From the NCBI GenBank assembly GCA_949751835.1, contig CATKHK010000112.1:62001-126000 (forward strand): a stretch of 64,000 nucleotides of DNA. Reading direction: 5' to 3'. Position 1 is the first letter of the stretch, and each line of letters begins with the position of its first letter. Below are positions 1 to 35,263 of this stretch, one piece after another. The stretch is from Blepharisma japonicum (Eukaryota > Ciliophora > Heterotrichea > Heterotrichida > Blepharismidae). Below the pieces are notes generated by a model. That model was not told the origin of the DNA and did no database searches. It saw only the letters and a list, made by a program, of their open reading frames with translations. The position numbers and the translations under genes were made by a program.

Positions 1-226
1 AACAAGCTAAAACCTCTGAATATTCACAGCTATGCCAATCAGTAAAGCTATTAATATCAGATGACAACTCAAAAATTAAATCTTGGCTTCAGATTTCACT
101 ATTCGTTTTATAGATCACAATTATTTCTAAGCAATTGCAAAAATTCAATAGCAAAATCGATACAAGTAATTTTCACAGGAGATGATAATAACCAAAAATT
201 TTAGCGATTTCTTCAATTAAAAGCAT
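1..226 (-). CDS. receptor-like array copy 0, N-terminus only (cut by window edge)
   Basis: This is the first ~75 residues of another member of the array that fills the next 23 kb. It starts at an ATG at 226 (MLLIEEIAK) and runs off the left edge. The order matches the other copies: a short polar start, a hydrophobic stretch with a TGA-encoded Trp (LLWKLLVSILLLNF), then the conserved step 'CLEIIVIY' and the 'CEYSE' motif. The reading frame is open throughout with TGA as Trp. By comparison with its neighbours it should be a membrane receptor with an extracellular ligand-binding region. Only the leader and the start of the first binding unit are visible, so intactness cannot be judged. Confidence 0.75.
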
Positions 227-664
227 AAGTTTAGGTAAATAATTGATTTTTATTATGCTATGTATTGACTAAATATCAAAATTTATTAAAATACTGGAAT
301 ATTTATTTGATTTAATAAAAGAGTTTTATTTGAAATTTTATAAAATTTATAAAAAGAAAAACAAATATCAAAAATGGGATTTCCAAAAAAAAATATAAAG
401 TCTATAAATTTTCTCGATTAAATATTGATAAGAATATTGCTATTTAAATTTTATTAGTTCTTTGGCCTCGTAATGGATATTTTCTTTTAAGATTTTGCCA
501 GAAAATCATAATAAAGAATCAAAATATAGCAAAAAGTTAATTTATATCTCTTTCTGTAAAATTTTGCTTATTTTTAAACGAATTATATTTAAATTATTTT
601 ATTAATGATAAGAAAACTATTTATATTCAATTAATTATTATAAAACGTTGAAATAATATATAAT
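227..664. other. AT-rich intergenic spacer
   Basis: This stretch lies between the start of copy 0 and the stop of copy 1. It is very AT-rich with homopolymer runs. I see no credible gene, RNA or repeat in it. It must hold the promoter of copy 0 and the 3' end signals of copy 1, but no motif stands out. Confidence 0.5.
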
Positions 665-3600
665 TTAAGGGCTTTGGTCTCCAATTTTACGTGGCGATGA
701 CATAGATGTCCCACTTGGAACAATTTTTGATAATGCAAGCTTTGAATTTTTGCCAAAAGAAAATGCAAAAATAAACAAATTTGATGTATCTTGGCCTTTT
801 TTGCGAAAAAGTAAACTTGGGTACTTTTTATACTGGACATAAACTCCGATTAAAGCAATCATTATAAATCCAAAGCACAAAATTGATACTAAAGCAAGGG
901 GGTCTCCACCAATACTTTGCTCAATTACTGAAATAAAAGCAAGCCACACTACTCCAATGGAAAACAGAGCTTGCCACCAACTGAATCTTGGATAATTAAA
1001 AGGCTTGAATTTAAATAAAAAAACAATATAAAAGCTCATCACTATTATAAATAAAATGCCATGAAGGAGATTCTGGGCCCTTTTTACTGTCTTGTTCATC
1101 ACAATTAAAGTTATTTGAACAATAGTTTTTACCATCAAAAATAGTGGAACTGCTTTTACGTGTAGAATAGGTTGTAGCTCTTGTCAAAGAGGCCTACAAA
1201 ATACTGCAAGCGGCTCGTAAGCTATTAATGCAAATATAGAAAAGATTGCATAAGCTAAATGTTCATCTTTTCAACAAAAATAGTAGCAATCTTGAGCAAG
1301 AAAACTCTCAGTAAAATTATCTCCAATAGCTTGATCGCATAAAAAGATGTCAAGGCAAACTGAAATAAACGGAATAAAGCAAAGATCGCCTAAAATAGGC
1401 ATCAAATAATCAGCCAAAGTGCTTAAATTCCTAAAGACAAAGCTCAAAGGAAATTTCTCATCAAGCCTAAGGAGAACTACTGAGCATAGGATAACTCATA
1501 AGCCAATTAATGCAAAAACAGCATTAGCAATAATTCAAAATACCCCATTTCTCAGTCTCAAAATATGGTCTAAACTAAGCGAAAAAGTATCACCTATTTC
1601 AGCCAATGTAGAATTAAGCAATGAAAAATCTGGCCCCATTGAAGAAAACTGGAAAAATTCTATTATAATTGACCCTGCCACAATTGCGTCTTGCATACAA
1701 ATTTCTTCTTTTGCTGTCAGAGGTTCTATTGAAATTTTCCATCACTTTTTTCATATATAAATAGTAATTGCCAGAGAAATCAAAGCAACAAAAAAGCAAA
1801 TCCCAAAAACCAAGACTCTTCCTTTTGCAAAGGTTTTCGCAAGTCTATCAGGGAAAGGACATTTATAATTGGTATTTCTCAAATCTGTTGGCTTTATTGT
1901 TGAACCGTCAGCATATACTATTTGTTCTTGAATTTGTATTAGCTGTGTGAATTGAGGCCGAAACTGTCCCATCACATAGGTGGTTAAATTGCCATTATCA
2001 TCTAGTTTATTTGCAATAATCTCAAAAGTTTGTATAATCCTATCATTAGACCCTTTTTCTATACTAACTTTTCCAGTACACCCATAAAACTGCTGATTTC
2101 TCATAATTTTTTGCATTTTATCAGGATCAGTATAATCAATTCCTCTATTGATCATAAAATCTAGCGCATATGCAATTAAAAAAACTGCATCCACATAGAA
2201 GCAGCTATATGAATTAATCAATCCCCCATAATTTTTATTAATATACGATAACGATTTTTCTCCTATTTGTCCAACTCAGCTTTGCCCATACATAGTAATT
2301 ATAGGAACTGCAGTTTCATATAATTTATATTTATACAAATTATCATATGCTGTAAATGTAGCAAGATCTGAAAGTTTTGTAAAAATAACAAGATCTCCTT
2401 TTCTTATTCCTAAATCATAAAATTCTTCAAATATATAATACGCCATTGGGTATTGGAGAATTGAAATTAAAAATCTGGCCTGAGTATCAATGATTTCTTG
2501 GAGGAGATATGAATATTCTTTTATTTCAGTCCTGCTAAGATTTGGTGGAATTGCTCTGCTACTTTCTGGATTGATTAGAGAGAGGTCGTGATTTTTAATG
2601 CTTTGGCTGAAATAATAATACCCAGATAGTCCTCATGAATCATTTTGGTAGAGGACTGCAACTTGGGTTCAGCCTAAAGCTCGGATAAAAATTGGGATTA
2701 ATGAGTATCCAAGAGAAAGAGATGCTTGAACTCTCATATACATTGGATAATCTGCAGTTGAATTTAGTGTGACATCTCCATTAGATGCACTTACAATGGG
2801 GAATGTTAAATTAAGCTGTTTAAAAGATTTCATTGATCCAATTGCTACCGCTGATCCTCAAGCTGATATATGGCCTATACCAAAATTGTCTTTATCTTTT
2901 AAATAGCAAGTGTTGGCAAATGTAGAGTTATAAATTGATGTACCACAGTCAAAATTAAATAGGGTAATTTGGAAATTATTTAGCAAGCCAGAACTATCTT
3001 CATTTATTATGTCACAAGCTGCATATGAGCCATATCCTCCAACTAGTCCAACAGTAATAGGAAGACCTGTAGGATTAGAAGAGCCAGCTTCTATGCTAAG
3101 CTGTAAAACTTTTTTTATTGATTTTGGAATTTCTTTAGAATTTCCTAGAAAAATTATATCACTAAATAAGAATAATTCTTCATTAAGGATTTCTCCAACT
3201 ATTACTCTTTCTCCATCTTGGACATTAATTAACGAAAAAAGATTTCTATTTCTTCATAAAACATCTAATTGGAAAAATAATTCTTGTCTGCTTTCAGTTT
3301 TGATATTTTCTAGCAAGTGATTAATTATACTTTTTATTGATGAGATCATATATTCATTGTCTGAAGAAGAAAATTCTTGTCCTTTTACTGTAATTATTAA
3401 GGCTCCGTTTATGGAGCATTTATATCCGCTTTCTTGGTTTAAAACAATTCCATTCCCAATATCTAATAGTTTTGTAGGCTCTAAAACTCTTTGCAATTTA
3501 TAGAACTCTGCCGGATTCATAAAAATATAGTAAAGAGTTTCTCCAAGCGGAGTTATAATTCTGTTAACTAATTCCTCCGTATTTGTATTCGGCTCAATAG

Positions 3601-4123
3601 TCATAAAATTTAAAGTCTTAGAATATTTTTCCAAATTTTCTTTTAAAATATTCTTAAATCCATCAGAAATCGTAAGACCTTTAGTTCATCCAAAATAACG
3701 AAGCACAGAAAGAAATGCATTGGTTTGTTCTAAAGATGATGGCTTAATTGAAAAATTTCATAGATCAGAATAACTTAATTTGTTTTCAAATACCAAATGA
3801 GATATTTCTCTCTCCTTGCATAATTTAGATAAGAAAAATTGAGTTTCAATCCGTTCTGTCAAATCCAAAACCAGTAAAGCGTTCTCAAAAATTTCTAAGC
3901 AAGCTAGAGTCTCTGAGTAATCACAGATGTGCCATTCAACAAGGGAGTTGAATTCTAAAAATTGATAAAATTTATTTTTTGGATTTCAAATAGAATTGCT
4001 TTCTTCATATATCAAAATAATTTCTAAGCTTTTACAAAGATTCAGCCAACTGATAAATAAAGCCGCTTTTCATAGAGATCGATGAAGGGTAAAAAAATCC
4101 CCAAAATAATCAACTAGAGACAT
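665..4123 (-). CDS. receptor-like array copy 1: double type-1 periplasmic-binding ectodomain with ~9 membrane segments
   Basis: One frame of 1152 residues stays open from the ATG at 4123 to a TAA at 665 when TGA is read as Trp. Residues ~15-35 are hydrophobic (leader or membrane anchor). Residues ~32-350 resemble a diverged ANF-receptor/type-1 periplasmic-binding unit, including 'FSIKPSS...VLRYFGW' near 125-146. Residues ~355-765 form a more typical second unit: 'GLVGGYGSYAA', 'YNSTFANTCY', 'FIRALGW', 'VLYQNDSWG' and late 'YGCTGKVSIEKG'. About nine hydrophobic segments follow from ~775 to ~1096, with a conserved 'DCYYFCWK' between segments 4 and 5. The tail ends with a basic 'KKYPSLLFRKKGQDTSN' stretch. 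Type-1 PBP ectodomains usually bind amino acids or other small molecules. A class C GPCR is unlikely because there are more than seven segments. Function is inferred only. Confidence 0.82.
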
Positions 4124-4351
4124 AATTTATTGAATCAATATTATTTTAATTTTATTACTATTTTCAATCCATTTTGATCAGCAAATTACTGCGCTTTTCC
4201 TTCTTCCTCTATGCAGTATTTAGCTAGTTGATTTAATTCTTAATTATTTAATAATAAAATAATTAAAAACTATATATACTAAGTTTCTATGCAAATTAAA
4301 TTTTTGATTATTTGAGATTAGAGTTTTTTAAAATAAATATTAATAAGACAT

Positions 4352-7300
4352 TTATTTTCACGATTCCATGCCTACTTTCGAATTAGAAACAATTTTAGAC
4401 AAAGCCAATTTTGAATGCTTCCCAAAAGAGAAAGCAAATACAAACAAACTCGACGTGTCTTGTCCTTTTTTCCGAAACAGAAGGCTTGGGTATTTTTTAT
4501 ATTGTACATAAAGACCAAGAAGTCCTATAGTTATAAATCCAAAGCATAAAATCGATACCAAAATAATTTGGTTTCCTCCAAAGCTTTGTTCGATTACTGA
4601 AAGGAAAGAAAGTCATACAACTGCAATTAAAATTAAAGTCTGTCATCAGCTGAATCTCGCATAATTATATGGCTTGAATTTAAATAAAAAGATAATATAA
4701 AAGCTCATGACTATTAGAAAGAGAATTCCATGAAGAATGCTTTGAGCTCTTTTTACTGTTTTATTCATCACAACTAATGTAATCTGAACCATTGTTTTTA
4801 CTGTCAAAAAGAGTGGAACTGCTTTTACATGTAAAATTGGCTGCAACTCTTGCCAAAGAGGTCTACAAAATACTGCGAGTGGCTCATAAGCAATTAATGC
4901 GATAATCGAAAAAATTGCGTATACTAAATGCTCGTCTTTTCAGCAAAAATAATAGCAGTCTTGTGCTAAAAAGCTATCAGTGAAATTATTTCCTATAGAC
5001 TGATCACATAAAAAAATATCAAGACAAATTGAAATAAACGGAATAAAGCAAAGATCGCCTAAAATAGGCATCAAATAATCAGCTAAAGTTCCTAAATTTC
5101 TAAGTACAAAACTCATAGGGAATTTTTCATCAAGTCTAAGAAGAACCACTGAGCATAAAATAACCCACAAGCCAATAGATGCAAAAACAGCATTAGCAAC
5201 AATTCAAAATACTCCATTTCTCAGTCTCAAAATATGATCCAAACTTAGTGAAAAAGAGTCACTTATATCTGCATACGTTGAATTAATTGCTGAAAAATCA
5301 GGCCCCATTGAAGAAAACTGAAAAAATTCAATTATAATCGTCGCTGCCACAATAACGTCTTGAACACAAAGTTCTTCTCTAATGGTTAAAGGTTCTATTG
5401 AGAATTTCCATCACTTTTTTCATATATAAATTGTAATGACTAGAGAAATTAATGCTACAGTAAAGCAAATCCCAAATACCAATGCTCGTCCTTTTGCAAA
5501 GGTTCTTACAAGCCTGCTAGAAAAAGGGCACTCATTATTGCTATTCCTCAGATCTGCTGGCTTTATAGTTGATCCATCAGCATATACCATAGGCTCTTGG
5601 ATTGTTATTAATTGTGTGCTTTGAGGCCGAAAATACCCCATAATATAAGTTGTAATATTTCCATTGCTATCTAGCTTGCTAGCAACAATTTCAAAAGATT
5701 GGATAATCCTATCATTTGACCCTTTTTCTATATTAACTTGTCCAGTGCACCCATAAAATTGCTGATTTCTCATAGCATTTTGCAGTTTATCAGGATCTGT
5801 ATAGTCTAATCCTCTATTAATCATGAAATCCAAAGCATAAGCAATCAAAAAGACTGAATCAAAATAAAAGCAGCTATAAGAATTAATTAAGCCACCATAA
5901 GATTTAGAAATCTGTGCCAATGCTTTTTCTCCCCATGATCCTACTCAGCTTTGTCCATATATAGTAATAATTGGGACTGCAATTTCATATATTTTATTGC
6001 TAAATGCATTATCATATGCTGAAAATGTAGTCAAGTCAGAAGTTGTTGTAAAAATAACGAGGTCTCCTTGCCTTAATCCTAAATCATAGAGTTCTTCAAA
6101 TACATAGTAAGCAGCAGGGTACAGCATAATAGAAATCAAAAATCTAGCTTGGGAGTCTATTATTTCTTGAAGGAGGTGAGAATATTGTTTAACACCATTT
6201 CGATCAATGCTTGGTGGAATTCCTCTGGAATTTTCTGGATTAACTAATGAAACATCGTGATTTTTAATTCCTTGAGTTAAATAAAGATAGCCATTCAGCC
6301 CCCATGTATCATTTTGGTAAATAACTGCAACTTTTTGTCATCCTAGGGCGCGGATCAAAATTGGGGTTAGGGAATACATATAAGAAAATGATGCGGTAAT
6401 TCTCATATACATCGGATAAATTGTGGTGGAATTTAGACTTGCATCTAAATTCGAACCACTTACTATGGGAAATGTTAAATTAAGCTGAGCAAAAGATTCC
6501 ATTGATCCGATTGCCATAAGGGAAGATCAAGCTGCAACGTGTCCTAAGCCAAATTTTTCTTTGTCTTTTAAATAGCAAGCATTAGCATATGTGGAGTTAT
6601 AAATCGAGGTTCCACAGTCGAAATTAAACATTTCGATCTGAAAATTATTTAGCAATCCAGATCATTTATCATTAATTATGTCACAAGCGGCGTATGAGCC
6701 ATATGCTCCAACTTTTCCTAAAGTAACAGGCGGACCTGTAGGATTTGAAGTGCCAGCTTCAATGCTAAGCTGCAAAACTTTTTTTATTGATTTTGGAATT
6801 TCTACTGCATTGTCTGGGAAAGTGATATTGCCAAATAAAGATAAATTTCCATTAATGATATCTCCTACTATTACTCTTACTCCATCTTGAATGTTAACTA
6901 AAGAAAACTCATTCATACTATAACGACTTTTCATAAGGGAATTTAATCAAAAAACAATTTCTATATTGTTTTCTGTTTTAATGTGGCTTATTACATAAGA
7001 AATCACATTTTCTATTGCTGATTTCATATATTCTTCATCTGAAGAAACCAATTCCTGTCCTTTGACAGTAATAATCAAGGCTCCATCAATAATACATTGA
7101 TACCCACTTTTCTGATCAAAAATGATTCCGCTTCCACTTGCTAGAAGCTTTGTAGTTGTTAAAATGCTTTGAAGTTTTATTGATTCAGTAGACTCTAAGA
7201 AAACATAATAAAGAGCTTCACCAAGAGGTGTGATAATTCTATTTACTAATTCATTAATATTTGTATTAGGCTCAATTGCTAAAAAATTTAGTTTTTCAGA

Positions 7301-7801
7301 ATAGTTTTCAAGATTCTCTTTTAGACAATCCATAAATCCATCATAAATTGTCAGACCTTGAGTTCATCTAAAATAATGAAGCACAGCAATAAAAGCGTTA
7401 ATTTGAGCGATATATGATGGTTTTAACGAAAAAGTTCACTTATCAAAATAATTAAGTTTATTTTCAAGCACCAAGTGTGGGATTTCTCTTTCCTTACATA
7501 ATTCTGATATAAAAAATTGAGTTTCGATACGATCTGTTAAATCTAAAACTAACATAACATTTTCATAAAATCTAACACAAGTTATTATGTCAGAATATTC
7601 ACAATTATAAAATTCAACAAGGGAGTTTGTTTCAGCCATAAGGTTCAATAAGACTTGATTGCTTATGGTGGTGTTGTTTTTTTCATATATCACAATAATT
7701 TCTAAGCACTTAAATTCATTCAGTAATAAGGCAAATAAGAGTAATTTTCATACGAATTTATGGAAGACTAAATTTTCCACAAGATCTTTGATTATAGACA
7801 T
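4352..7801 (-). CDS. receptor-like array copy 2
   Basis: A 1149-residue frame runs from the ATG at 7801 (MSIIKDLVENLVFHK) to TAA at 4352. A TGA two codons before the TAA is read as Trp. The plan matches copy 1: hydrophobic leader, diverged first binding unit with 'LVLENKLNYFDKW', second ANF-type unit with 'LGKVGAYGSYAACDIIND' and 'YGCTGQVNIEKGSND', nine or so membrane segments, and the 'DCYYFCW' and 'RKKGQDTSS' motifs. It is closest to copy 3; the two share long near-identical stretches in the membrane part and the same 3' flank after the stop, so they arose by recent segmental duplication. I see no frameshift or TAA/TAG interruption. The likely role is a plasma-membrane or ciliary receptor for a small ligand (inference). 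Confidence 0.82.
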
Positions 7802-8111
7802 TATTAAATAGGTAAAATATTAATATTATTTAAGGGTAATTAAATTTATTGTGACATTTATACCTTTAAATCTGATAATAATGCTGGGAGCTTAAAGAAT
7901 TCAAGATTAATGCAAATTCGTTTCTAAGTTTAGTAAACAAGATCTAAAAGAGCTTCGCTACGGCTTAGAGTTGATATTTTAATTCAATAAAAATTACTGA
8001 GGAGATGGTATTTTAACTGGTTTAATGATTAAATATTATTTCTTGTTTAAAAGAGTAATTTTACTTTTCCCAAAATTAGGTTTTTAACATATCTTGCTAA
8101 GTCATGAGGGA
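7802..8111. other. spacer upstream of copy 2, duplicated upstream of copy 3
   Basis: This 310-bp stretch holds no gene. It aligns with the spacer at 12660-12881 upstream of copy 3, beginning at a shared 'ttaaatttattgtgacat' and including the well-conserved segment listed separately. It is therefore part of the duplicated unit [decayed C-terminal piece - 5' flank - receptor gene]. It presumably contains the promoter of copy 2. Confidence 0.55.
7940..7975. repeat. conserved 36-bp spacer element, copy A
   Basis: The segment 'gatctaaaagag' followed by 'ttcgctacgg' and 'tagagttgat' recurs with two transitions at 12801-12836. It lies ~140 bp upstream of the start codon in both places. It is better conserved and less AT-rich than its surroundings. 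It could be a regulatory site or simply a relic of the duplicated flank. Confidence 0.5.
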
Positions 8112-8815: not shown

Positions 8816-8835
8816 AAATAAATATTAATAAGACA

Positions 8836-11800
8836 TTATTTTCACGATTCCATGCCTACCTTAGAACTTGAAACAATTTTAGACAAAGCCAATTTTGAAT
8901 GCTTCCCAAAAGAGAAAGCAAATACAAACAAACTCGACGTGTCTTGCCCCTTTTTCCGAAACAGAAGACTTGGGTATTTTTTATATTGTACATAAAGACC
9001 AAGAAGTCCTATAATTATAAATCCAAAGCATAAAATCGATACCAGAATAATTTGGTTTCCTCCGAAACTTTGCTCAATTACTGAAAGGAAAGAAAGCCAT
9101 ACAACTGCAATTAAAATTAAAGTCTGTCATCAGCTGAATCTCGCATAATTATATGGCTTGAATTTAAATAAAAAAATAATATAAAAGCACATCACTATTA
9201 GAAAGAGAATTCCATGAAGAATACTTTGGGCTCTTTTTACTGTTTTATTCATCACAATTAATGTAATCTGAACCATTGTTTTCACCATTAAAAAGAGTGG
9301 AACCGCTTTTACATGTAAAATTGGTTGCAGCTCTTGCCAAAGAGGCCTACAAAATACTGCGAGTGGCTCATAAGCAATTAATGCGATAATCGAAAAAATT
9401 GCGTATACTAAATGCTCATCTTTTCAGCAAAAATAATAGCAGTCTTGTGCTAAAAAGCTGTCAGTGAAATTATTTCCTATAGACTGATCACATAAAAAAA
9501 TATCAAGACAAATTGAAATAAACGGAATAAAACAAAGATCGCCTAAAATAGGCATCAAATAATCAGCTAAAGTCCCTAAATTTCTAAGTAAAAAGCTCAT
9601 CGGAAATTTTTCATCAAGTCTAAGAAGAACCACTGAGCACAAAATCACTCACAAACCAATAGACGCAAAAACAACATTCGCAACGATTCAAAACACTCCA
9701 TTTCTCAGTCTCAAAATATGTTCCAAACTTAGTGAAAAAGAGTCACTTATATCTGCATATGTTGAACTAATTGCTGAAAAATCAGGCCCCATTGAAGAAA
9801 ACTGAAAAAATTCAATTATAATCGTCGCTGCCACAATAACGTCTTGGACACAAAGTTCTTCTCTAATGTTCAAAGGCTCTATTGAGAATTTCCATCACTT
9901 TTTTCATATATAAATCGTAATAATTAAAGAAATCAAAGCGACTGCGAAACAAATCCCAAATGTCAATGTTCTTCCCTTTGCAAAATTTCTTACAAGCCTG
10001 CTAGGAAAGGGGCACTCATTATTACTATTCCTCAGATCTGTTGGCTTTGTGGTTGATCTATCAGCATATATCATAGGTTCTTGGATTGTTATTAATTGTG
10101 TACTTTGAGGCCGGAAATACCCCATAATATAAGTTGTAATATTTTTATTATTATCTAGCTTGTTAGCAACAATTTCAAAAGATTGAATAATCCTATCATT
10201 TGACCCTTTTTCTATATTAACTTGCCCAGTGCACCCATAAAATTGCTGATTTCTCATAGCTTTTTGCAGTTTATCGGGATCTGTATAGTCTAATCCTCTA
10301 TTAATCATGAAATCCAAAGCATAAGCAATCAAAAAGACTGAATCAAAATAAAAGCAGCTATAAGAATTTATTAAGCCACCGTAGGATTTAGAAATCTGTG
10401 CCAAAGCTTTTTCTCCCCATGATCCGACTCAGCATTGTCCATATATAGTAATAATTGGGACTGCAATTTCATATATTTTATAGCTAAACGCATTATCATA
10501 CGCTGAAAATGTAGTCAAGTCAGAAGTTGTCGTAAAAATGACGAGATCTCCTTGCCTTAATCCTAAATCATAGAGTTCTTCAAATACATAATAAGCAGCA
10601 GGGTACAGCATAATAGAAATCAAAAATCTAGCTTGGGAGTCTATTATTTCTTGAAGGAGGTACGAATATTCTTTTACACCATTTCGATCAAGACTTGGTG
10701 GAATTCCTCTGCTATTTTCTGGATTAACTAAAGAAACATCGTGATTTTTAATTCCTTTAGTTAAGTAAAGGTAGCCAGAGCGCCCCCATGTATCATTTTG
10801 GTAAATAACAGCAACTTTTTGTCATCCTAGGGCGCGGATCAAAATTGGGGTTAGAGAGTACATATAAGAAAATGATGCGGTAATTCTCATATACATCGGG
10901 TAAATTGTGGTGGAATTTAGACTTGCATCTAAATTCGAACCACTTACTATGGGAAATGTTAAATTAAGCTGAGCAAAAGATTTCAAGGATCCGATTGCCA
11001 TAACGGAAGATCAAGCTCCAACGTGTCCTAAGCCAAACTTTTCTTTGTCTTTTAAATAGCAAGCATTAGCATATGTGGAGTTATAAATCGAGGTTCCACA
11101 GTCGAAATTAAACATTTCGATCTGAAAATTATTCAGTAATCCAGAACTTTTATCATTAATTATGTCGCAAGCTGCGTATGAACCATATGCTCCAACTTTT
11201 CCTAAAGTTACAGGCGGGCCTGCAGGATTTGAAGAGCCAGCCTCAATGCTAAGCTGCAAAACTTTTTTTATTGATTTTGGAATTTCTGTAGAATTGTTTG
11301 GAAAAATGATATTGCCAAATAAAGATAAATTTCCATTAATGATTTCTCCTACTATTACTCTCGTTCCGTCTTGAATGTTAACTAAAGAAAACTCATTCAT
11401 ACTATAGCGACTTTTCATAAGGGAATTTAATCAAAAAACAATTTCTATATTGTTTTCTTCTTTAATATGACTTAATACATAAATAACCACATTTTCTATT
11501 GCTGATTTCATATACTCTTCATCTGAAGAAACCAATTCCTGGCCTTTGACAGTAATAATCAAGGCTCCATCAATAATGCATTGATACCCACTTTTTTGGT
11601 CAAAAATAATTCCGCTTCCACTTGTTAGAAGCTTTGTGGTTGTAAAAATGTTCTGAAGTTTTACTGATTTAGGAGACTCTAAGAAAACATAGAAAAGAGC
11701 TTCACCAAGAGGTGTGATAACTCTATTAAATAACTCATTAATATTAGCATTAGGTTCAATTGCCAAAAAATTTAGTCTTTCTGAATATTTTTCAAGATTT

Positions 11801-12659
11801 TCTCTTAGATAATCCATAAATCCATCATAAATTGTAAGACCTTGAGTTCATCTAAAATAATGAAGCACAGCAACAAAAGCGTTAATTTGATTTATTGATG
11901 ATGATTTTACTGTGATAAAATATATCAGTCAAGAATTTCTGTTCTTTTGGCCTATTTTGCATATAAGGTAAACTCCAACTGATATTTATTCTAGAAATAG
12001 CGAGAAACTACTGTTAAAACTAAAGTATCTGTCTCTAGAGAATGGGGAATGGGTAAAGCCACCAGGCGGTAGAAATTGGGACCTTTAGGGTAATGGAAAT
12101 GCTCAAGCAGGTTTTGAGCAAGTTGAAGCGCTGCTGTCTAAGGATTCAACCTTGTGGATGCTTATGCTGATGTCAATATTAGGCTTAATGGGCTCCCAGC
12201 TCCTTTTATAAGAAGCTCTGAAAATAACTGAGAATAAGACTATAAACTTTTAAATAATCTAATAATTTCAGATGACGGTTTTATTGAAAAAGTCCACTTA
12301 TCAAAATAATTAAGTTTATTCTCAAACACCAAGTGTGGGATTTCTCTCTCCTTACATAATTCTGATATAAAAAATTGAGTTTCGATACGATCTGTTAAAT
12401 CTAAAACTAGCATAACATTTTCATAAAAACTAACACAAGCTATTGCCTCAGAATATTCACAATTATACCCTTCAACAAGGGAGTTTGTTTCAGCAAATAG
12501 GCTCAACAAGACTTCTTTGCTGGTGCTGTCATTGCTTTTTTCATATATCACAATAATTTCTAAGCAATTAAATTCATTCAGTAAGCAAGCAAATAAGAGT
12601 AATTTTCATACAAATCTATGGAAGACTAAATTTTCCACAAGATCTTTGGTTGAAGACAT
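8836..12659 (-). pseudogene. receptor-like array copy 3, interrupted by a 374-bp insertion
   Basis: The gene starts at the ATG at 12659 (MSSTKDLVENLVFHR) and ends at TAA at 8836. The first ~129 codons are open, then the frame enters foreign sequence and meets a stop at 12240. Downstream of 11901 the same protein resumes in another frame and stays open to the end. Both parts match copy 2 closely. Subtracting 374 bp (11902-12275) leaves 3450 nt, the exact length of copy 2, and joins 'FSIKPSS' to 'INQINAF' just as in the intact paralogues. As written the gene is broken. If the insert is an internal eliminated sequence removed during nuclear development, or is absent from most macronuclear copies, the gene would be functional. 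Domain layout is as in copy 1. Confidence 0.72.
11902..12275. other. precise 374-bp insertion (IES-like) within receptor copy 3
   Basis: Bounded by the direct repeat GATGA on the plus strand (11897-11901 and 12271-12275; TCATC on the gene strand). Removing one repeat copy plus the interior restores frame and codon count relative to copy 2. The right part (about 12035-12240) is clearly richer in G and C than the flanks and looks coding on the plus strand, with a TAG and a frameshift. The ends show no convincing inverted repeat. At 374 nt it is far longer than the 15-16 nt introns of this genome. The repeat permits a second register 3 bp away (371 bp), which also keeps frame. Confidence 0.72.
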
Positions 12660-12800
12660 TATTATAGAGATAAAATACTTGAACTATTATTTAAAGGTGA
12701 TTAAATTTATTGTGACATATATACTTTTAAATTTGATAATCTCACGGGAACTTAAATAATTTGAAATTAATGAAATTATTAATTTCCAAGTTTATAAATA

Positions 12801-12836: not shown

Positions 12837-12881
12837 GTCAGTCTTAATTTAATAAAAAAATTAAAATATATTACTAAGGGC

Positions 12882-13530
12882 TTAGATTTTAAATTTTTCT
12901 CGCTGATAATGATTTTCTTGCTGATATTGGTAAACTGGTAGAAACAATTTTCGATAAAGCTTCTTTTGAATGCCTACCAAATGAAAAAGAAAATTTAAAT
13001 AAATTCGATGTATCTTGACCTTTTTTCCGAAATAGAAGGCTTTGATATTTTTTCTTTGAATATACTCCCAGAAATCCAATAATTAAGAAGCCAAAACATA
13101 AAATTGATACTAAAATAAGGGGATCTCAACCAATAATTTGTTCAATGACTGAAATCAAAGCAAGCCACATTACTCCAATTAAAACCAAAGTTTGCCATCA
13201 GCTAAATCTTGCATAGTTAAAAGGTTTTAATTTAAATAAAAAAGCAATATAAAAGCTCATCGCTAATATAAACAGAATACCATGAAGTAGGTTTTGGGCC
13301 CTTTTTACTGTCTTGTTCATCACAATTAAAATTATTTGAACCATTGTTTTTACCATCAAAAAAAGTGGGGCTGCTTTTACATGTAAAATAGGCTGCAGTT
13401 CTTGTCAAAGCGGCCTGCATAATACTGCAAGTGTCACATAAGCTATTAATCCAAATACAGACAAAATTGCATAAACTAAATGCTCATCTTTCAACAAAAA
13501 TAATAGCACTCTTCTGCTAAAAAGCTAATA
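12882..13530 (-). pseudogene. decayed C-terminal fragment of a receptor-like copy (P2)
   Basis: Minus-strand sequence matching the array proteins from the 'DCYYFCW' region, with that Trp codon frameshifted, through the last membrane segments to the basic 'FRKKGQD' tail. Single-base indels split it into short frames. The 5' two-thirds of the gene are absent; at ~13530 it abuts a piece of an ectodomain (P3). It is most similar to the C-terminal parts of P4 and copy 4. Confidence 0.72.
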
Positions 13531-13544
13531 AAATTCACCATGAT

Positions 13545-13865
13545 TTTTATCGTTAAATAAGAACAATTATTCATTAAATACTTATCCAACTATTAATCTT
13601 TCTTCATCTTTTCATTGGAGAGATCATATAATCATTGTCTAAAGAAGAAAATTTTTGTCCCTTACCGTAATTATAAAAGGTTCCATCTATGGAACATTTA
13701 TATCCGCTTTCTTGATCTTAAACATATCCATTTCTTATATTTAAAAGCTTTGCGAGCATTTGCAGTTTATATGACTCTGTCGGATTCATAAACATATAGT
13801 AAGGAGTTTCTCCAAGCAGAATTGTGATTATATTAGCTAATAACTCCGTATTTGTATATTTATAT
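13545..13865 (-). pseudogene. decayed ectodomain fragment of a receptor-like copy (P3)
   Basis: This matches the first binding unit of copy 1, roughly the DNA at 3170-3600, with an internal deletion and several frameshifts. Recognisable pieces include 'NRNIIT' and the 'YYMFMNPTESYKLQ' motif. It lies between two C-terminal fragments, so the order of domains is scrambled relative to a real gene. Confidence 0.65.
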
Positions 13866-13874
13866 ATAAATTTC

Positions 13875-15161
13875 TTAATTAAGGGCTTAGATTTTAAATT
13901 TTCTCGCTGATAATGATTTTCTTGCTGAGGTTGGTAAACTGGTAGAAACAATTTTCGATAAAGCTTCTTTTGAGTGCCTGCCAAAAGAAAAAGCAAATTT
14001 AAATAAATTCGATGTATCTTGGCCTTTTTGCGAAATAGAAGGCTTTGATATTTTTTTCTTTGGATATAAACTCCCAGTATCCAATGATTAAAAAGCCAAA
14101 ACACAAAATAGATACTAAAATAAGGGATGTCCATCAATAATTTGCTCAACGACCAAAATCAAAGCTAGCCACGTACTTCAATTGAAACCAAAGTTTGCCG
14201 TCAGCTGAATCTTGGATAATTATAAGGCTTGAATTTTAATAAAAAGCAATATAAAGCACATCACTAATATAAACAGAATACCATGAAGTAGGTTTTGGGC
14301 CCTTTTTACTGTCTTGTTCATTACAATTAAAATTATTTGAACCATTGTTTTTATCATCAAAAAGAGAGAAGCTACTTTTACATAAAAAATAGGCTGCAGT
14401 TCTTGTCAAAGAGGCATACAAAATACTGCAAGTGGCTCATAAGCTATTAGTGCAAATATAGACAAAACTGCATAAACTAAATGCTCATCTTTTCAACAAA
14501 AATAATAGCAATCTTCTGCTAAAAAGCTGTCAGTAAAAATTATTTCCAATAGACTGATTGCATAAAAATATATCAAGACAAACTGATATAAATGAAATAA
14601 AACCAAGATCACCTAAAACAGGCATCAGATACTCAGCTAAGGTGCTTAAATTTCTGAATATAAAGCTCAAAAGAAACTTTTCATCAAGCCTAAAAAGTAC
14701 TACTAACACCCCTCCATGAGCTTACATATATATATACTACTGTAATAATTATCAAAATTTAAATAAGAAATATACTCACCAATCTTTCTCATTCTTTTTG
14801 AATGGAAGTGAGCATAAAACTACTCATAAGCAAATTAATCCAAAAACGGCATTAGCAATGATTCAAAATACTCCATTTCTTAATTTTAATATATTGTCCA
14901 AGCTCAGCGAAAAATTGTCACTTATTTCAGCCAAAGTAGAATTAATAGGAGAAAAATCAGGGCCTATTGATGAAATTGAAAAAATTCAACAATAATGGTC
15001 GCAGCTACGATAATGTCTTGCAAACAGATTTTTTCTCTTACTGTTAAAGGGTCAATTGAGAATTTTCATCATTTTTTTCATATATAAAATGTACACTGCA
15101 GCATCAATATCAGCTGTGATTGGAACGTAATAGCTCTTTTAAATAGATCTAAAAAACTCAT
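13875..15161 (-). pseudogene. decayed membrane-domain copy with a foreign leader (P4)
   Basis: This fragment covers all membrane segments and the tail of the array proteins but no ectodomain. At its 5' end an ATG at 15161 opens a short unrelated leader (MSFLDLFKRAITFQS...) that runs in frame into 'YIWKKWWK', the start of the membrane part, using three TGA Trp codons. Soon after, near 'EFFQF', a one-base deletion shifts the frame. A ~105-bp insertion (14705-14809) and further indels follow. It is dead as written, though young enough that long stretches still align to copy 4. Confidence 0.68.
14705..14809. other. ~105-bp insertion inside fragment P4
   Basis: Paralogues read 'actact' directly into 'gagcata/gaacaca'. 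Here about 105 bp intervene, including a TA-rich run (tacatatatatatactact). No open frame or clear terminal repeat is seen; the edges are fixed only by comparison with copies 1 and 4. Confidence 0.45.
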
Positions 15162-15710: not shown

Positions 15711-18700
15711 TTAAGGAGTATGATTTTCTATTTTTCTCGCTGATAATGATTTTCTTGCTGATGTTGGTAAGCTGATAGGAACTATTTTAGATAAAGCTGC
15801 TTTCGAATTTCTTCCAAAAGTAAAGGCAAATTTAAATAAATTTGATGTATCTTGGCCCTTTTTCCTAAACAGAAGGCTTGGGTATTTTTTTCTTTGAATA
15901 TAAACTCCCATCAAACCAATGATTAAGAATCCAAGGCATAAAGTTGATAGTAAAATAATAGGATTCACTCCTGAGCTCTGCTCAATTACTGATATTAAAG
16001 CAAGCCACACAACTCCGACTGAGACCAAAGTTTGCCATCAGCTGTATCTTTGATAATTAAAAGGCTTGAATTTACAAAGAAAAACTATATATATGACCAT
16101 CACTAATATAAAAAGAGTTCCATGAAGGAGGTTTTGAGCCCGCTTCACAGTTTTATTCATCACAATTAATATAATTTGAACCATTGTTTTTACCATCAAA
16201 AAGAGTGGAACTGCTTTTACGTGTAAAATAGGTTGTAGCTCTTGCCAAAGAGGTCTGCAAAATACAGCAAGTGGCTCGTATGCAATTAAAGCGATAATAG
16301 AAAAAATAGCATAAAATAAATGCTCATTTTTCCAGCAAAAATAATAGCAGTCTGCTGCTAAAAAGCTGTCAGTGAAATCATTTCCTATAGACTGATCACA
16401 TAAAAATATATCAAGGCAAACTGAAATAAAAGGAATAAAACAAAGATCACCTAAAATAGGCATCAGATAATCAGCTAATGTACTTAAATTTCTAAAAATA
16501 AAGGTCATGGGAAATTTTTCATCAAGTCTAAGGAGTACTACTGAACACAGAAATACTCATAAACCAATAGCTCCAAAAACAGCATTAACAACAATTCAAA
16601 ATACTCCGTTTCTTAGTTTCAATATATTGTCTAAGCTTAACGAGAAAGTATCACTGATACCAGACAATGTAGAATTAATAGGAGAAAAATCAGGACCCAT
16701 TGAAGAAAGTTGAAAAAATTCAACAATAATTGTCACAGCTACAATAATGTCTTGTAGGCAGATTTCTTCTCTTGCTGTTAACGGTTCGATTGAGAATTTC
16801 CATCACCTTTCCCATATATAAAATGTAATGACAAAAGAAATCAATGCAACAGTAAAGCAAATCCCAAAAACTAAAATTCTACCTTTATCAAAAGTTTTTA
16901 CAATTTTATCAGGAAAAGGGCATTCGCTGCTAGTAACCCTTAAATCTGATGGCTTTGTGGTTGAACCATTAGCATATTCTAGTGGTTCTTGGATTTTTAT
17001 TAATTGTGTACTTTGAGGCTTAAACTGGCCCATAATATACGTTGTAATATTATAATTTTCATCAAGCTTATTGACTATAATCTCAAATGTTTGGACAATC
17101 CTATCATTTGACCCTTTTTCTATATTAACTTTTCCAGTGCATCCATAAAACTGCTGATTTCTCATATATGTATTTAGCTTATAAGGATCTGTATAATCTA
17201 ATCCTCTATTAATCATGAAATCCAAAGCATAAGCAATCAAAAAGACTGAATCAAAATAAAAGCAGCTATAAGAATTAATTAACCCCCCATAAGCTTCAGA
17301 AATTCTTGACAGCGCTTTTTTCCCTAGTGATCCGACTCAGCTTTCTCCATATATAGAAATCATAGGTACTGCTATTTCATTTAATTTATATAAATATTTA
17401 TTGTCATAAGCCTCAAAAGTAGTCAAATCAGTAACTGTTGTGAAAATTATGAGATCTCCTTTCCTTAGTCCTAAATCATAGAGTTCTTCAAATATATAAT
17501 ATGCAGTTGGGAAATGTAAAATAGAAACCAAAAATCGTGCCTGAGAATCAATTAATTGTTGAAGAACTCCTGAATACTTTTTTACTTCATCACGGCCAAG
17601 ATCTGGTGCAATTATTCTGTTATTTTCTGGGTTTATTATAGAAATATCATGACTTTTAATACCTTCTAAAAAATAAAGGTATCCAGATAGTCCTCATGTA
17701 TCATTTTGATAAAGAACTGCAATTTGTTTTCATCCTAAAGCGCGGATAAAAATTGAGATTAAAGAGTATTCAAAAGAAAAAGAAGGCTGGACTCTCATGT
17801 ACATTGGATAATTTGCAGTTGAATTTAAGGTAAAGTCTCCATTGCAGGCACTTACAATGGGGAATGTTAAATTAAGCTGTTTAAAAGATTTCATTGACCC
17901 AATTGCCATAACTGAAGACCATGCTGATACATGTCCTAAACCAAATTTTTCTTTATCTTTTAAATAGCAGGCATTAGCAAATGTGGAATTATAAATTGAG
18001 GTTCCACAATCAAAATTAAACATATCGACCTGAAAGTTATTAAGGAGGTCTATGTTGCCTTCATTTATGACGTCTATTGCAGCGTATGAGCCATATCCTC
18101 CAACTAATCCAACAGTAATAGGTGAGCCTGTAGGATTTGTAGATCCCGCCTCAATGCTGAGATGCAAAATTTTTTTGATTGATTTTGGGATATTTGTAGA
18201 ATAGCCTGGAAAGTCTATGCTACTGAATAAGGATACTTTTTCGTCAATGATTTCTCCAACAACTACTCTTTCTCCATTTTTGATATTAATTAATGAAAAA
18301 TTGCTGAAAAAATAATGGTTTTTTGAGAGTAAGTTTAATTGGTATAGCATTTCGTAAGTATTCTCTGATTTAATGGACTTTAGCAAGGAAGAAATTACAG
18401 TTCCGATTGCTGATATTATATAATTTTCTTCTGAAGAGATGAACTCTTGAGATTTTACAGTAATAATTAAGGCACCTTCAACAGCACACAGATACCCACT
18501 TTTCTGGTCTAAAAGAATTCCATTCCCCGCAGTTAAAAGTTTTGTGGACATCAAAAGATTTTGTAATTTTAATGATTCTGTTGAGTTCATAAAAATATAA
18601 TAAAGTGTCTCACCAAGAGGGGTTATAATTCTATTAACTGCTTCTTTCATGTTTGCTTTGGGCTCAATATTCAAGTAGTTCAAATTTACTGAATATTCTT

Positions 18701-19184
18701 CCAGGTTTTCTCTTAGAACATTTTTAAAGCCATCATAAATCACTAGTCCTTGGGTCCATCCAAAATGCTTAAGGACACCTATAAATGCATTAATTTGGCT
18801 TAGTGAGGAAGGCTTAGCTGAGAAAGTTCATTTATCAAAATAACTGAGTTTGTTCTCAAACACCAAGTGAGGGATTTCTCTTATTGTGCATAGTTCAGAA
18901 ATAATAAATTGGCTTTCACTGCTCTGAGTTAAATCAACAACTAAAATAGAGTTTTCATAAAAATTAAAGCAAGCCGACATCATTGAAAATTCACAATCGT
19001 GCAATTCTACTACTGGGTTTAGCTCTGAGAGTAAACCCACAAGTTGTTGCAAATCTCAATCGATTTTACTTTTCTCATGAACCACAATAATTTCTAAGCA
19101 TTTGCAATGATCCAACAAACAAAAAAAGAATATCAATTTTCATATGGCCCGATTATTTTTTGAACAGTTTTCAATAAGGGACAT
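15711..19184 (-). CDS. receptor-like array copy 4
   Basis: An uninterrupted 1157-residue frame from ATG at 19184 (MSLIENCSKN) to TAA at 15711. A hydrophobic leader (KLIFFFCLL) precedes 'CLEIIVVHEK'. The first unit carries 'FENKLSYFDK' and 'AFIGVLKHFGWTQG'. The second ANF-type unit begins near 'VGLVGGYGSYAAIDVIN' and has 'YNSTFANACYLKDKEKFG', 'PMYMRVQPSFSF', 'YGCTGKVNIEKGSND'. About nine membrane segments follow, with 'DCYYFCWK' and a tail ending 'SARKIENHTP'. Trp is encoded by both TGG and TGA. Long stretches without Trp, for example over 300 residues of ectodomain, stay open. It is somewhat diverged from copies 1-3. Likely a surface receptor for a small ligand; the ligand is unknown. Confidence 0.82.
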
Positions 19185-19919
19185 TTTTTATTGAGTACCT
19201 ATAATATTACTTGTATAAGAAGAAAGCTTTTTTATATTATTGCATATATATAAATATAAACTTAATTTTTATTATTTATTAGAGGTTAGATGCTTTCAGG
19301 CTATAGACAATTTCATATATAAAATGCGAAAAAATGCTAGCACCTGTTTAAATATTATATATTAAATACAGATGTCGAATATTCAAAGTTTAGCAAATAA
19401 ATAATTTTCAACTTTTGAACCAGTCCTGACGCTTGCAAACTGTATTCTTCTTAGGGAAATACAGACGAGCAAAATAAAAATTTTGAAAAGACGATTACTT
19501 CTATTTCAGAATCTTTATAACGCATTATTTAACACTGAAGCGATAATTAAGTATTTATTATTAATTTTTATCATAATTAATTTTATTAAAGAACAATTTA
19601 ATAAAAACTTGTCGCCATTACCTTTACATTAAGCATAGAATGTAGTCAATCAACTTTAAACATAATCATTTAAATGGAAAGGATTTGCGCATTAATTCTA
19701 CCTTTCAGAATAAAGTAAAATGCTAAAAGAATGATTAATATAAAGCATAATTAAAAATATAAATTTCCTTTTCTACTGAATTTCTTGCTAATAATGTATC
19801 TAAAAATGATAATTATAATAATTAAATATAAAGGCAAATTAATTCAAAAATCAGAATATATCAATAAGTATGTAATATATAAAAGATAATAAATTATTAA
19901 CAATAAAAGACTTTTCAAG
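19185..19919. other. AT-rich intergenic spacer
   Basis: 735 bp upstream of copy 4 and downstream of copy 5. Very AT-rich; no pseudogene fragment of the array, RNA gene or clear repeat is visible here, unlike the spacers around copies 3 and 4. Confidence 0.5.
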
Positions 19920-22900
19920 CTACTTTGACCCAATATTAGGATAAATTTTTGTTAATGCAATTTTTGAATTTTTGCCAAAAGAAAAAGCAAACTTAAATAT
20001 CCTTATAAGAGTGAATAAAAATATATTTTTTTGAGTCAATCCTTTATGAAATGCAGTGCTTATTATACTTAATAGAGATAAAGTAGATGCATCTTGACCC
20101 TTTTTACGAAACAATAGGCTTGGATATTTTTTATACTGTATATAAATTCCAAATAATCCAATAGCTATAAAACCCGAGCACAAAATAGATGCCAGAATCA
20201 GTGGACTGCCCCAGATATTCTGAGAAATTATTGAAAGAAAAGCAAGCCATACAACTGCGATTAAAATCAAATCCTGCCATCAACTAAATCTTGAATAATT
20301 ATAAGGCTTGAATTTATATAAAAAAATGATATATAAAACCATCACTGTTATAAAGAGAACTCCATGAAGTGTGCTTTGTGCTCTTTTTACTGTCTTATTC
20401 ATCACAATTAAAGTAATTTGAACCATTGTTTTTACCATCAAAAATAGTGGGGCTGCTTTTACATGCAAAAGAGGCTGCAGCTCTTGTCAAAGAGGCCTAC
20501 AAAATACAGCAAGTGGCTCATAAGCCATTAAAGCAAAAATCGAAAAAATTGCATATGCTAAATGTTCACCTTTTCAGCAAAAATAATAGCAGTCTTGAGC
20601 AAGAAAACTGTCAGTAAAATTATCTCCGATAGATTGATCGCATAAAAAGATATCAAGACAGACTGAAATAAATGGGATAAAGCATAGGTCACCCAGAACT
20701 GGCATAAAATAATCAGCTAGGGTGTTAAGATTTCTGAACATAAAATTGTGTGGGAATTTTTCATCAAGTCGAAGAAGAATTACAGAGCATAGGATTACTC
20801 ATAAGCCAATAAACCCGAAAACAACATTAACCACAATTCAAAATACTCCATTTTTGAGCTTTATAATATGGTCAAGACTTAGTGAAAGAGTATCACTTAT
20901 GCTTGCTAGTGCAGAATTTATAGGCGAAAAATCTGGGCCCATAGAGGAAAATTGGAAAAATTCAATAACAATAGTTGCGCCAACAATAAAATCTTGTAAA
21001 GAAATTTCTTTTTTAGCTGCTAAAGGCTCTATAGAGATCTTCCACCATCTTTTTCATATATAAATAGTAATAAATAGCGAAATCCCTGCTATTCCAAAAC
21101 AAATTCCAAATACCAAAGCTCTTCCTTTTGCGAAGGTCTTAACAAGTCTCTCAGAGAAAGGACATTTATAATTCATATTCCTTAGGTCAGTAGGCTTTAC
21201 TGTGGATCCATCTGCATATTGCAAAGGTTCTTGGATTTTTAAGAGTTGTGTGCTTTGAGGCCGAAACTCCCCCATAATATAATAAGCTAAATTTCCATTT
21301 TCGTCTAATTTATTTACAATTATTTCAAAAATTTGGACAATCCTATCATTCGACCCTTTTTCAATAATAACTTGTCCAGTGCACCCATAAAATTGCTGAT
21401 TTCTCATTATTTCTTGAAGCTTATAAGGGTCAGAATAATCCAACCCTCTATTTATCATATAATCTAAAGCATAAGCAATCAAAAATAAAGCATCAAAATA
21501 AAAGCAGCTATAAGAATTTATTAATCCTCCATAATCCTTATTAATATGTGCTAAGGCTTTTGTTCCTAATGATCCAACCCAGCTTTGTCCATAGGTTGTT
21601 ATAATAGGTATGGCAACTTCATAAACTTTATATTTATACATATTATCATACCCTGCCAGGGTAACCAAATCTGTAAGTGTCGTAAAAAAGACCAAATCTC
21701 CTTTTCTCAGTCCTAAATCATAAAATTCTTCAAATATATAATAAGCTGCTGGATACTGAAAAATAAAAATTAAAAATCTAGCTTGGCAGTCAATAATTTC
21801 TTGAAGAATATATGAGTATTTTTTTACTCAATTTCTGTCAAGATTTGGCGGAAAAGCTCTGCTGCTTTCTGGGTTAATTAAAGAGAGATCATGACTTTTT
21901 ATGCTTTGGATTAAAAAATAATACCCTGATAGTCCTCATGTGTCATTTTGGTAAAGGACTGCAACTTTTTCTCACCCGAAAGCTCGGATAAAAATTGGGA
22001 CTAAAGAGTATGCATAGGAATAAGAAAGTTGCACCCTCACATACATAGGAAAATTTGTAGTAGAACTTAACGTGGTATCACCATTTGTAGCACTGACGAT
22101 AGGGAATGTTAAATTAAGTTGCTTAAAAGAGGACATTGATCCTATGGCCATGACTGACCCTCATGCTGAGATATGCCCTAGGCCAAAATTTTCCTTGTCT
22201 TTTGAATAACAAGTATTTGCGAAAGTTGCATTATAAATAGATACCCCACAGTCAAAATTTGTAAGGGAAAGTTGGAAATTATTAAGCAGCCCAGAATCTC
22301 CATTATTAATAATCTCGCGAGCGGCATATGAGCCGTATGCGCCTACTAGTCCAATAGGAATAGCTGGGCCTGAAGGATTCGTGGAGCCTGCTTCAATGCT
22401 TAATTGCAATATTTTCTTCTGAGATTTTGGGATTTTTAATATATTGCCTGGAAAAATGATATTTTTGAATAAAAATAATTTTTTGTCAATGATTTCTCCA
22501 ACTATTACTCTTTTTCCATATTGAATATTTATTAATGAAAAATCACTGTTGCTAAAATGACTTTTAAATAAAGCATTTAGATGGAAAAATATTTCTGAAC
22601 TGCTTTCTGTTCTTATATTACTCAGTAAATAAGAAATTATTCGCTTTATTGATAATTTCAAATAATCTTCATCAGAAAAGGTGAATTCTTGACCTTTAAC
22701 TGTAATAATTAAAGCCCCATCAATGCTACATTCATATCCGCTTTTTTGGTCTAAAACAATTCCATTACCACTTGTTAAAAGTTTTGCTGATAATAAAGCG
22801 TTTTGCAGTTTATATGATTCAGTGTAATTCATAAAAATGTAATAAAGAGTGATACCGAGAGGAGTTATAATCCTATTTACCAGCTCATCGATATTTGCCT

Positions 22901-23438
22901 CAGACTCAATAATCAAATAATTCAAATTTTCTGAATATTTTTCAAATTTTTCTTTTAGAGAATTTTTTAATCCATCATAAATCACAAGGCCCTGAGTTCA
23001 TTTAAAATAATTAAGAGCAGATATAAAGGCATTAATTTGGTCTGAATATGATGGAGCAACTAAGAATGTTAAATGATCAATATAAGGCAGCTTATTTTCA
23101 AACAGCAAGTGAGAGATCTCTCTTTCTTGGCATAATTTGGATATAAAAAATTGAGCTTCAATACTATCTGTTAAATCTATTATTAGTGTAGAATTTTCAT
23201 AAAAATCAAAGCAAGTTGATATCTGTAAAAATTCACAATTATGCCATTCTATGAGAGAATTATTATTTGAGGATAGGTCCAAAAGTAAATCTAGCCTTCA
23301 GATTGGGCTATTTTTTTCATAAACTACCATAACTTCTAAAGAATAGCAAAAATTCTGTAGACAAATAAACATGACCAATTTTCACCATGAGAGTTGGCAA
23401 CATCTTAGACTTTCTTCTAAAGTTTTAATGAGAGACAT
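19920..23438 (-). CDS. receptor-like array copy 5, with a 27-residue insertion in the tail
   Basis: An uninterrupted 1172-residue frame from ATG at 23438 (MSLIKTLEESLRCC) to TAG at 19920; the other full copies end in TAA. The ectodomain has both binding units ('APSYSDQINAF' in the first; 'GLVGAYGSYAAREIIN', 'FIRAFG', 'YGCTGQVIIEKGSND' in the second). The membrane part is about nine segments with 'DCYYFCW'. After the last segment, between 'GQDAST' and 'FKFAFSFG', it has 27 extra residues absent from every other copy (DNA about 19999-20080, 81 bp, in frame). It is the most diverged member and lies at the edge of the array next to single-copy genes, so it may be the oldest copy. Confidence 0.82.
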
Positions 23439-35217: not shown

Positions 35218-35263
35218 CATTTTTTATCCTTGATGCCTTCATTATTTATCGTTTTAATATAAA

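Follow-up and report, generated by a model that had tools for sequence, protein, structure and literature searches.

What kind of protein is encoded by the head-to-tail, minus-strand gene array at positions 1–23,462 of the window (the whole stretch of DNA that was analysed, 64,000 nucleotides), and what would such proteins do for the cell? The array consists of four intact genes of ~1,150 amino acids each, one interrupted gene, remnants, and a further gene that enters the window with its 5′ end (Table 1). The sequence-only reading of this DNA had counted six members, five of them full size, lying head to tail; the arrangement stood, while the count became four intact copies and one interrupted (copy 3). 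Read with TGA as tryptophan, the long frames extend over 665–4126, 4352–7819, 8836–11985, 15711–19187 and 19920–23462. The insertion in copy 3 is flanked on both sides by TCATC, copy 5 carries about 27 additional in-frame residues in its tail, and a first-unit profile match at window positions 1–145 lies inside the 5′ part of the next copy. As judged by profile matches and hydropathy, the chains were shown to be composed of a signal-like segment, two predicted PBP1 (Venus-flytrap) units, ~9 predicted membrane segments and a short tail.

Table 1. Features of the receptor-like gene array, in window coordinates.
Feature	Position	Strand	Basis or remark
Next array copy (L006), 5′ part	1..217, end approximate	-	contig 58,816-62,217; remainder left of window
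Copy 1, intact	665..4123	-	frame; stop 665-667, Met 4123; full chain matches Pfam ANF_receptor, E 4e-23
Copy 1 hydrophobic N-terminal segment, signal-peptide-like	4010..4066	-	family-averaged hydropathy, residues 19-37
Copy 1 first PBP1/ANF unit, diverged (predicted)	3122..4042	-	profile A2 matches GluN1 ATD
Copy 1 second PBP1/ANF unit, typical	1919..3121	-	58.2 bits as one stretch
Copy 1 membrane module, ~9 hydrophobic segments	776..1867	-	family-averaged hydropathy
Copy 1 cysteine loop CD..DCYYFCW.H, segments 4/5, predicted extracellular	1259..1351	-	
Copy 2, intact	4352..7801	-	first unit 6791-7720, second 5588-6790, membrane 4445-5536
Copy 3, interrupted	8836..12659 (about)	-	open frames 12240-12683 and 8836-11985
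~370-bp insertion breaking copy 3 first unit	11905..12269, boundaries approximate		sequence reading
Degenerate remnants with broken frames, from one further copy or more	12889..15138	-	membrane module recurs
Copy 4, intact	15711..19184	-	first unit 18183-19112, second 16980-18182, membrane 15837-16928
Copy 5, intact	19920..23438	-	first unit 22425-23354, second 21222-22424, membrane 20043-21170

Membrane-module places were found at no fewer than 209 positions (at least 209, a few being fragments) on at least 56 contigs, with at least 16 on the array's contig, and the listed places lie mostly in tandem clusters. The family is genome-wide, beyond what the window alone could reveal. The sequences that were read are those of the fetched loci, a minority of these places, and alignment A1 holds 33 rows, i.e., four window copies and 29 of the loci L001–L038 (left out were L001, L002, L004 and L005, which are the window's own copies, L008, L017, L027 and L036, as well as L035, which is short, and copy 3, which is interrupted). 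In 39 of 40 family loci scanned with the family profiles, the first unit is followed by the second and this by the membrane module; most of these loci are themselves profile rows, so that their scores, though not their order, follow by construction. In L035, which spans 2,729 bases, the first unit is missing. In the 33-row tree the seven C112 rows that were taken in, other C112 members being outside the tree, form one clade with support 100/100, which supports a local tandem expansion and agrees with what had been proposed from the letters of the array. Eight C112 sequences are under purifying selection in all three parts: median dN/dS over 28 pairs is 0.24 for the first unit, which is the fastest-evolving of the three, 0.16 for the second and 0.10 for the membrane part.

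The ectodomain had been described as two successive PBP1 units, the first diverged and the second typical, and profile analysis supported this description. By its sequence the second unit is clearly a Pfam ANF_receptor domain: PF01094 was matched in all five window frames (whole-protein E 4e-23 to 3e-28, 82–99 bits), the best stretch always lying in the second half, and its profile (A3) matched best the plant GLR3.4 (E 1.1e-27), with GABA-B1 (E 1e-20), T1R3 and mGluR7 among the other relatives. The Pfam scan of the five frames at E ≤ 1 returned solely ANF_receptor, Peripla_BP_6 and a weak ThiF, and a scan of two copies against NCBIfam returned no family. Searching the halves separately bore out the description in full for the second unit, since all five second units, taken as single stretches, scored 58–73 bits against the curated PF01094 cut-off of 25.4 bits, and in part for the first unit, where copy 4 (contig 80,576–81,022) passed with 30.2 bits and copy 1 stayed under the cut-off (17.0 bits, E 0.0033). 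When the first halves of five paralogs were scanned singly, four passed (L009, L011, L014 and L045) and L044 failed; 17 of the 33 first units match PF01094 at E ≤ 1. The best match of the first-unit profile A2 (33 members) is the GluN1 amino-terminal domain (ATD), with E 1.2e-11, while a profile built from just 15 closer first halves is weak (best GluK5 ATD, E 0.0015). Each ectodomain half also matches the other in hhalign (E 2.8e-5, probability 74%). These comparisons support the first unit as a probable diverged PBP1/ANF unit and, with it, a doubled ectodomain.

Beyond residue 750 the family-averaged plot contains nine hydrophobic segments, in line with the original estimate of about nine, and at a stricter hydropathy cut-off single sequences give six to nine. 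The DCYYFCW loop proved as conserved as had been stated, with C928, C945, C949 and W950 present in 33/33 rows, and polar or charged residues within the membrane are likewise retained (Q824 and K998 in all 33 rows, E821 in 32 and Q1002 in 30). We infer that the N-terminus lies outside and the C-terminus inside. Loops predicted inside carry on average 4.1, 2.5, 2.2, 2.8 and, in the tail, 10.3 lysines and arginines, those predicted outside between segments 2.4, 1.7, 2.0 and 0.3, and three of the four membrane-region sequons of copy 1 (N836, N935, N1009) fall in predicted-outside loops; position N935 is asparagine in 12 of 33 rows. However, the predicted-outside stretch that leads into segment 1 averages 4.5 such residues, and the copy 1 sequon N898 lies in a predicted-inside loop. 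The tail is short and, in the Pfam scan of the five frames, contains no recognised enzyme domain.

Is this module related to any known membrane protein? It had been called unfamiliar, and nothing convincing, be it a known 7TM or a channel family, was matched by Pfam, PDB, hhalign or phmmer searches. When the 33 membrane parts were scanned against Pfam to E ≤ 10, with HMMER filters on, which drop most matches above about 0.1, scattered weak matches to 16 families were obtained, the lowest E being that of DUF981 (0.002, one member) and the most shared being Oxidored_q2 (three members, best 0.064); 7tm_3 was not among them. The whole L010 chain matched Oxidored_q2 with E 0.0016, under the cut-off of that family. 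A PDB profile search with the module gave no match at E ≤ 5, phmmer with the L009 module a single one at E 0.38, and neither a pore motif nor channel homology was found in it. An internal repeat found no support (hhalign probabilities 0.3–0.4% at four split points), nor did kinship with the genome's own 7tm_3-like proteins (0.2%, with three rows on that side). Among viral contigs 21 stretches fit the pattern and none was confirmed as a relative. Two AlphaFold models, one of copy 1 based on the five window copies (mean pLDDT 32.2) and one of the membrane part based on seven rows from the window (39.4), were unusable. At the sensitivity attainable, the module appears to have no convincing relative in Pfam or PDB, and its kind is unmatched.

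The reading that we favour, with reasonable though far from complete confidence, is that of a very large family of heterotrich-type ciliate surface chemoreceptors, in which the second flytrap closes on a ligand, the first has diverged and the membrane bundle provides direct output. In this mechanism the second flytrap would close on a small extracellular ligand (an amino acid, a peptide or another small solute), whereas the diverged first one may bind a second ligand or serve dimerisation, by analogy with the NMDA receptor amino-terminal domain. Closure would be relayed through the short CPF linker to the bundle, which, in the least certain step, might itself be a ligand-gated channel or might activate a channel, and so alter ciliary behaviour. 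Direct output is favoured over a classical G-protein relay because there is no catalytic tail and one genome search revealed no recognisable G-alpha. That six-frame search, which a diverged or intron-split G-alpha could escape, gave 41 matches, mostly over short GTPase stretches; two of the loci, when read, were Arf-like by eye, and the sole frame over the cut-off passes by repeating short GTPase stretches. The size of the repertoire would suit a family that senses a wide range of environmental or mating cues. A further-reaching version, which we put forward tentatively and would not bet on, is a separate eukaryotic chemoreceptor class, in which tandem flytraps directly drive a nine-segment module that has a new fold and works ionotropically or without G proteins, as an "olfactory" repertoire of >200 genes, some members reading gamones.

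The same proteins might be diverged class C-type GPCRs, with flytraps placed on a 7TM core that signals through G proteins and has acquired two additional segments. The second-unit profile does match the ectodomains of GABA-B, taste and metabotropic glutamate receptors, the membrane part is multi-pass with its N-terminus predicted outside, and in another ciliate, Tetrahymena, a GPCR knockout is reported to lower G-protein activity (PMC3226668); yet the ~9 segments, the failure of all 33 membrane parts to match 7tm_3, the hhalign result against the genome's own 7tm_3-like proteins and the lack of a clear G-alpha in the six-frame search make this unlikely. Bacterial PBP units work in transport, and such a role, together with the conserved intramembrane charges E821 and K998 and a tail without signalling domain, would suit ligand capture or uptake, in which nutrients are bound by the flytraps, and the membrane part, rather than signalling, serves as a transporter or an endocytic anchor. 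We consider this improbable, for a family listed at over 200 places, most of them in tandem clusters, is closer to chemoreceptor repertoires than to transporters, and neither Pfam nor PDB offered a convincing transporter family.

Could the array instead encode mating-recognition receptors and their relatives, some of which bind the Blepharisma gamones? The telomere repeat and TGA as tryptophan fit Blepharisma, and a gamone paper mentions putative receptors without naming a gene for one in the text consulted (PMC10892320). However, two gamones would call for a far smaller family, gamone 1 is a glycoprotein (PMC10892320), and nothing ties the family to mating type or expression, so that this reading is very unlikely. 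Even slighter is the chance that these are cell-surface antigens with variable ectodomains and no ligand: large tandem families and the rapid evolution of the first unit would be expected of antigens, but all three parts are under purifying selection in the eight C112 sequences, and an antigen would have no need of a conserved multi-pass bundle with strictly conserved residues.

With an ectodomain of a classical kind that binds small molecules and a membrane part without match, the at least 209 places constitute a concrete candidate list for the reception of environmental and mating cues in a heterotrich. So far, flytraps in eukaryotic receptors have been used with 7TM cores, enzymes and glutamate-receptor pores; should the membrane module be a new transducer, it would add one more use. 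As to the candidate undescribed receptor class that had been proposed, no description of a two-flytrap, ~9-segment architecture in ciliates was found in the open-access titles and abstracts searched. Class C GPCRs (mGluR, GABA-B, CaSR, T1R and the Dictyostelium Grl) resemble the array family in joining an ANF ectodomain to a multi-pass membrane part. However, they have one ANF domain per chain in the architectures shown in PMC12716839, and a 7TM core, whereas in the array family there would be two units, on a membrane part for which no convincing match was found. Ionotropic glutamate receptors and plant GLRs supply the best profile matches of both units (GluN1 ATD for the first, GLR3.4 for the second), but neither the SBP_bac_3 / Lig_chan-Glu_bd domain nor the Lig_chan pore was found in the five frames (Pfam, E ≤ 1); in the same genome there are separate short iGluR-like genes, and the two that were read have SBP_bac_3 and Lig_chan domains and no ANF match. 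Natriuretic-peptide-type guanylyl cyclase receptors share the ANF_receptor ectodomain, although they contain one unit, one membrane segment and kinase-like and cyclase domains, the last two of which were not matched by Pfam in the five frames. It had been claimed that known families have one unit per chain, and this was not supported: most trypanosomatid receptor adenylate cyclases have two Venus-flytrap domains, according to PMC6027212, and the doubling is therefore not unprecedented. Like the array family, these cyclases are a protist multi-gene family with two tandem extracellular flytraps (PMC6027212); they differ in passing from the flytraps through one membrane segment to a cytosolic cyclase, whereas in the array family the predicted flytraps stand on ~9 segments and no cyclase was matched.

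The window covers bases 62,001–126,000 of contig C112. All array copies lie on the minus strand, and their long frames are open only when TGA is read as tryptophan. The sequence-only reading, in which six visible members were counted, five of them full size, came close; its five, however, include the interrupted copy 3, which leaves four intact. The G+C content of the window is 27–39% (2-kb steps), and the whole genome amounts to 45.2 Mb in 224 contigs, at the ends of which the CCCTAACA repeat occurs in blocks (168 places; reversed control 0). For Blepharisma stoltei, the accessible text of the genome paper gives UGA as Trp, 66% AT, CCCTAACA telomeres and an assembly of 41 Mb (PMC9942806).

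Features of the window and of other loci (copies numbered from the window start; L and C prefixes denote fetched loci and contigs)
Feature	Position	Strand	Remarks
Further copy	about 1-217	minus	reaches into the window
Copy 1	665-4123	minus	intact
Copy 2	4352-7801	minus	intact
Copy 3	about 8836-12659	minus	interrupted gene
Insertion breaking copy 3	near 11,905-12,269		~370 bp, flanked both sides by TCATC
Degenerate stretch	12.8-15.2 kb		pieces with broken frame, membrane module among them
Copy 4	15711-19184	minus	intact
Copy 5	19920-23438	minus	intact
Addition in copy 5	about 20000-20080		~27 in-frame residues in predicted cytosolic tail, missing from other window copies
Serine carboxypeptidase S28	30207-31619	plus	right of array
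Ankyrin-SAM protein	35258-36694	plus	right of array
DUF229 protein	37807-40530	minus	right of array
Open frame, at least 1465 aa	59606-64000	plus	WD40/EML-type repeats, Cfap43-like coiled coil; protein likely ciliary
Contig richest in members	C93:4,013-160,092		at least 26 membrane-module places, 22 in a single run
7tm_3-like proteins, ~430 aa	L039:853-2151; L040:961-2253; L041:958-2250	minus	three related proteins
Short iGluR-like genes	L048:1201-2601; L049:811-2202	minus	SBP_bac_3 and Lig_chan

The Pfam family ANF_receptor (PF01094) was matched in all five frames scanned, most strongly in the second half of the ectodomain, and the second units of these frames, each scored as one stretch, gave 58.2, 66.9, 72.7, 58.3 and 61.3 bits against a curated cut-off of 25.4. 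The second-half profile matches plant GLR3.4 (E 1.1e-27) and GABA-B1 (E 1e-20). The first unit is taken here to be a diverged PBP1 domain, by sequence rather than structure. Alone, the first half of copy 1 reached 17.0 bits against PF01094, under the cut-off, and that of copy 4 reached 30.2 bits, over it; in single scans of five paralogs, the first halves of L009, L011, L014 and L045 were over the cut-off and that of L044 under. Across 33 aligned members (four window copies and 29 other loci), the first half matched PF01094 in 17 at E ≤ 1 (best 2.2e-17). The profile of these 33 first halves matched the GluN1 amino-terminal domain (E 1.2e-11), including its closing 'NxQN...VG...FPG' region; counting against this, a profile from just 15 closer first halves gave a weak match, with the GluK5 amino-terminal domain (E 0.0015). 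The two halves were aligned to each other by hhalign with E 2.8e-5 and a probability of 74%, and at one locus (L010) the profile of each half also matches the opposite half (E 5e-7 and 2e-3).

In the membrane module, nine segments follow residue 750 when hydropathy is averaged across the 33 members, and 6 to 9 are found in single sequences under a stricter cut-off. Loop charges favour N outside and C inside, and copy 1 has four sequons here, three of them in loops predicted to be outside. Contrary to this topology, however, sequon N898 sits in a predicted inner loop and the stretch leading into segment 1 carries many lysines and arginines. All 33 members share C928, C945, C949 and W950, which lie in a predicted outer loop, as well as R976 and W979 of an inner loop and, inside segments, Q824 and K998; residue 821 is E in 32. 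Pfam yielded no convincing family for the module, the PDB yielded no chain at E ≤ 5, and a relation to 7tm_3 was not detected. Since both structure models were unusable, it may have a known fold that is masked by divergence.

Searches with five different membrane modules, each represented by 111–115 scored places out of 254–276 candidates, were combined by coordinates, with places from later lists counted as new by eye; at least 209 distinct places on 56 contigs were obtained, a few of them fragments. Of the places listed, 170 belong to clusters with at least two members within 12 kb, and the biggest runs among the matches listed comprise 22 (C93, from which L045 is the sole member read), 20 (C19) and 16 (C112, the contig of the window). 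In 39 of 40 family loci scanned with the family's own profiles, the first unit is followed by the second and then by the membrane module, although four of these loci correspond to copies in the window, most of the 40 went into the profiles themselves, and the window row has no reported membrane matches even though its modules are alignment rows; the exception, L035, is a short stretch without a first unit. In the 33-row tree, which has long branches elsewhere, the seven C112 rows form one clade (100/100), and the array is therefore regarded as a local expansion, although the tree left out other C112 members, one of which has just 52% identity to copy 1. Median dN/dS (Nei-Gojobori; 28 pairs of 8 C112 sequences) is 0.24 in the first unit, 0.16 in the second and 0.10 in the membrane module, at high synonymous differences (median 0.6 per site).

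What do such proteins do? They are, with moderate confidence, chemoreceptors. In the mechanism proposed as most likely, a ligand would close the second flytrap, the first flytrap would serve recognition or dimerisation, and the membrane bundle would be moved via the linker, giving a direct, channel-like output. That output is inferred because an enzyme domain is absent and no clear G-alpha was found, and it is held weakly, as a possible but rather doubtful reading. The genome search for G-alpha gave 41 matches, chiefly over short GTPase stretches, and none recognisable, though introns or divergence could hide one; a 676-aa frame passed the cut-off solely through repeated short GTPase stretches, and the frames of L046 and L047, the two loci read, look Arf-like to the eye. 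A further caveat is the G-protein activity that has been reported in Tetrahymena (PMC3226668). Separate from the flytrap family, the genome has 7tm_3-like proteins (three matches, L039 over the cut-off, L040 and L041 under); their C-terminal region is RGS-like by eye, and Pfam on L039 backs 7tm_3 alone. There are also ten iGluR-like matches, two over the cut-off, and no ANF match was obtained in the two such genes read (L048, L049).

No paper describing the ciliate family was found by title or abstract among the open-access papers searched, and the word 'receptor' is absent from the main text, as accessible, of both the Blepharisma genome paper (PMC9942806) and a paper on ciliate gene-family expansion (PMC10946202). 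Database entries for family members may well exist. In the accessible text of a GPCR survey that included proteomes of Stentor and other ciliates, the class C architectures described carry one ANF domain (PMC12716839). Since two-flytrap chains have been described already, the family is filed here among flytrap receptors, with an unmatched membrane part. Two flytraps in each chain are a feature that it has in common with the trypanosomatid receptor cyclases, as these are presented in the accessible text of PMC6027212.
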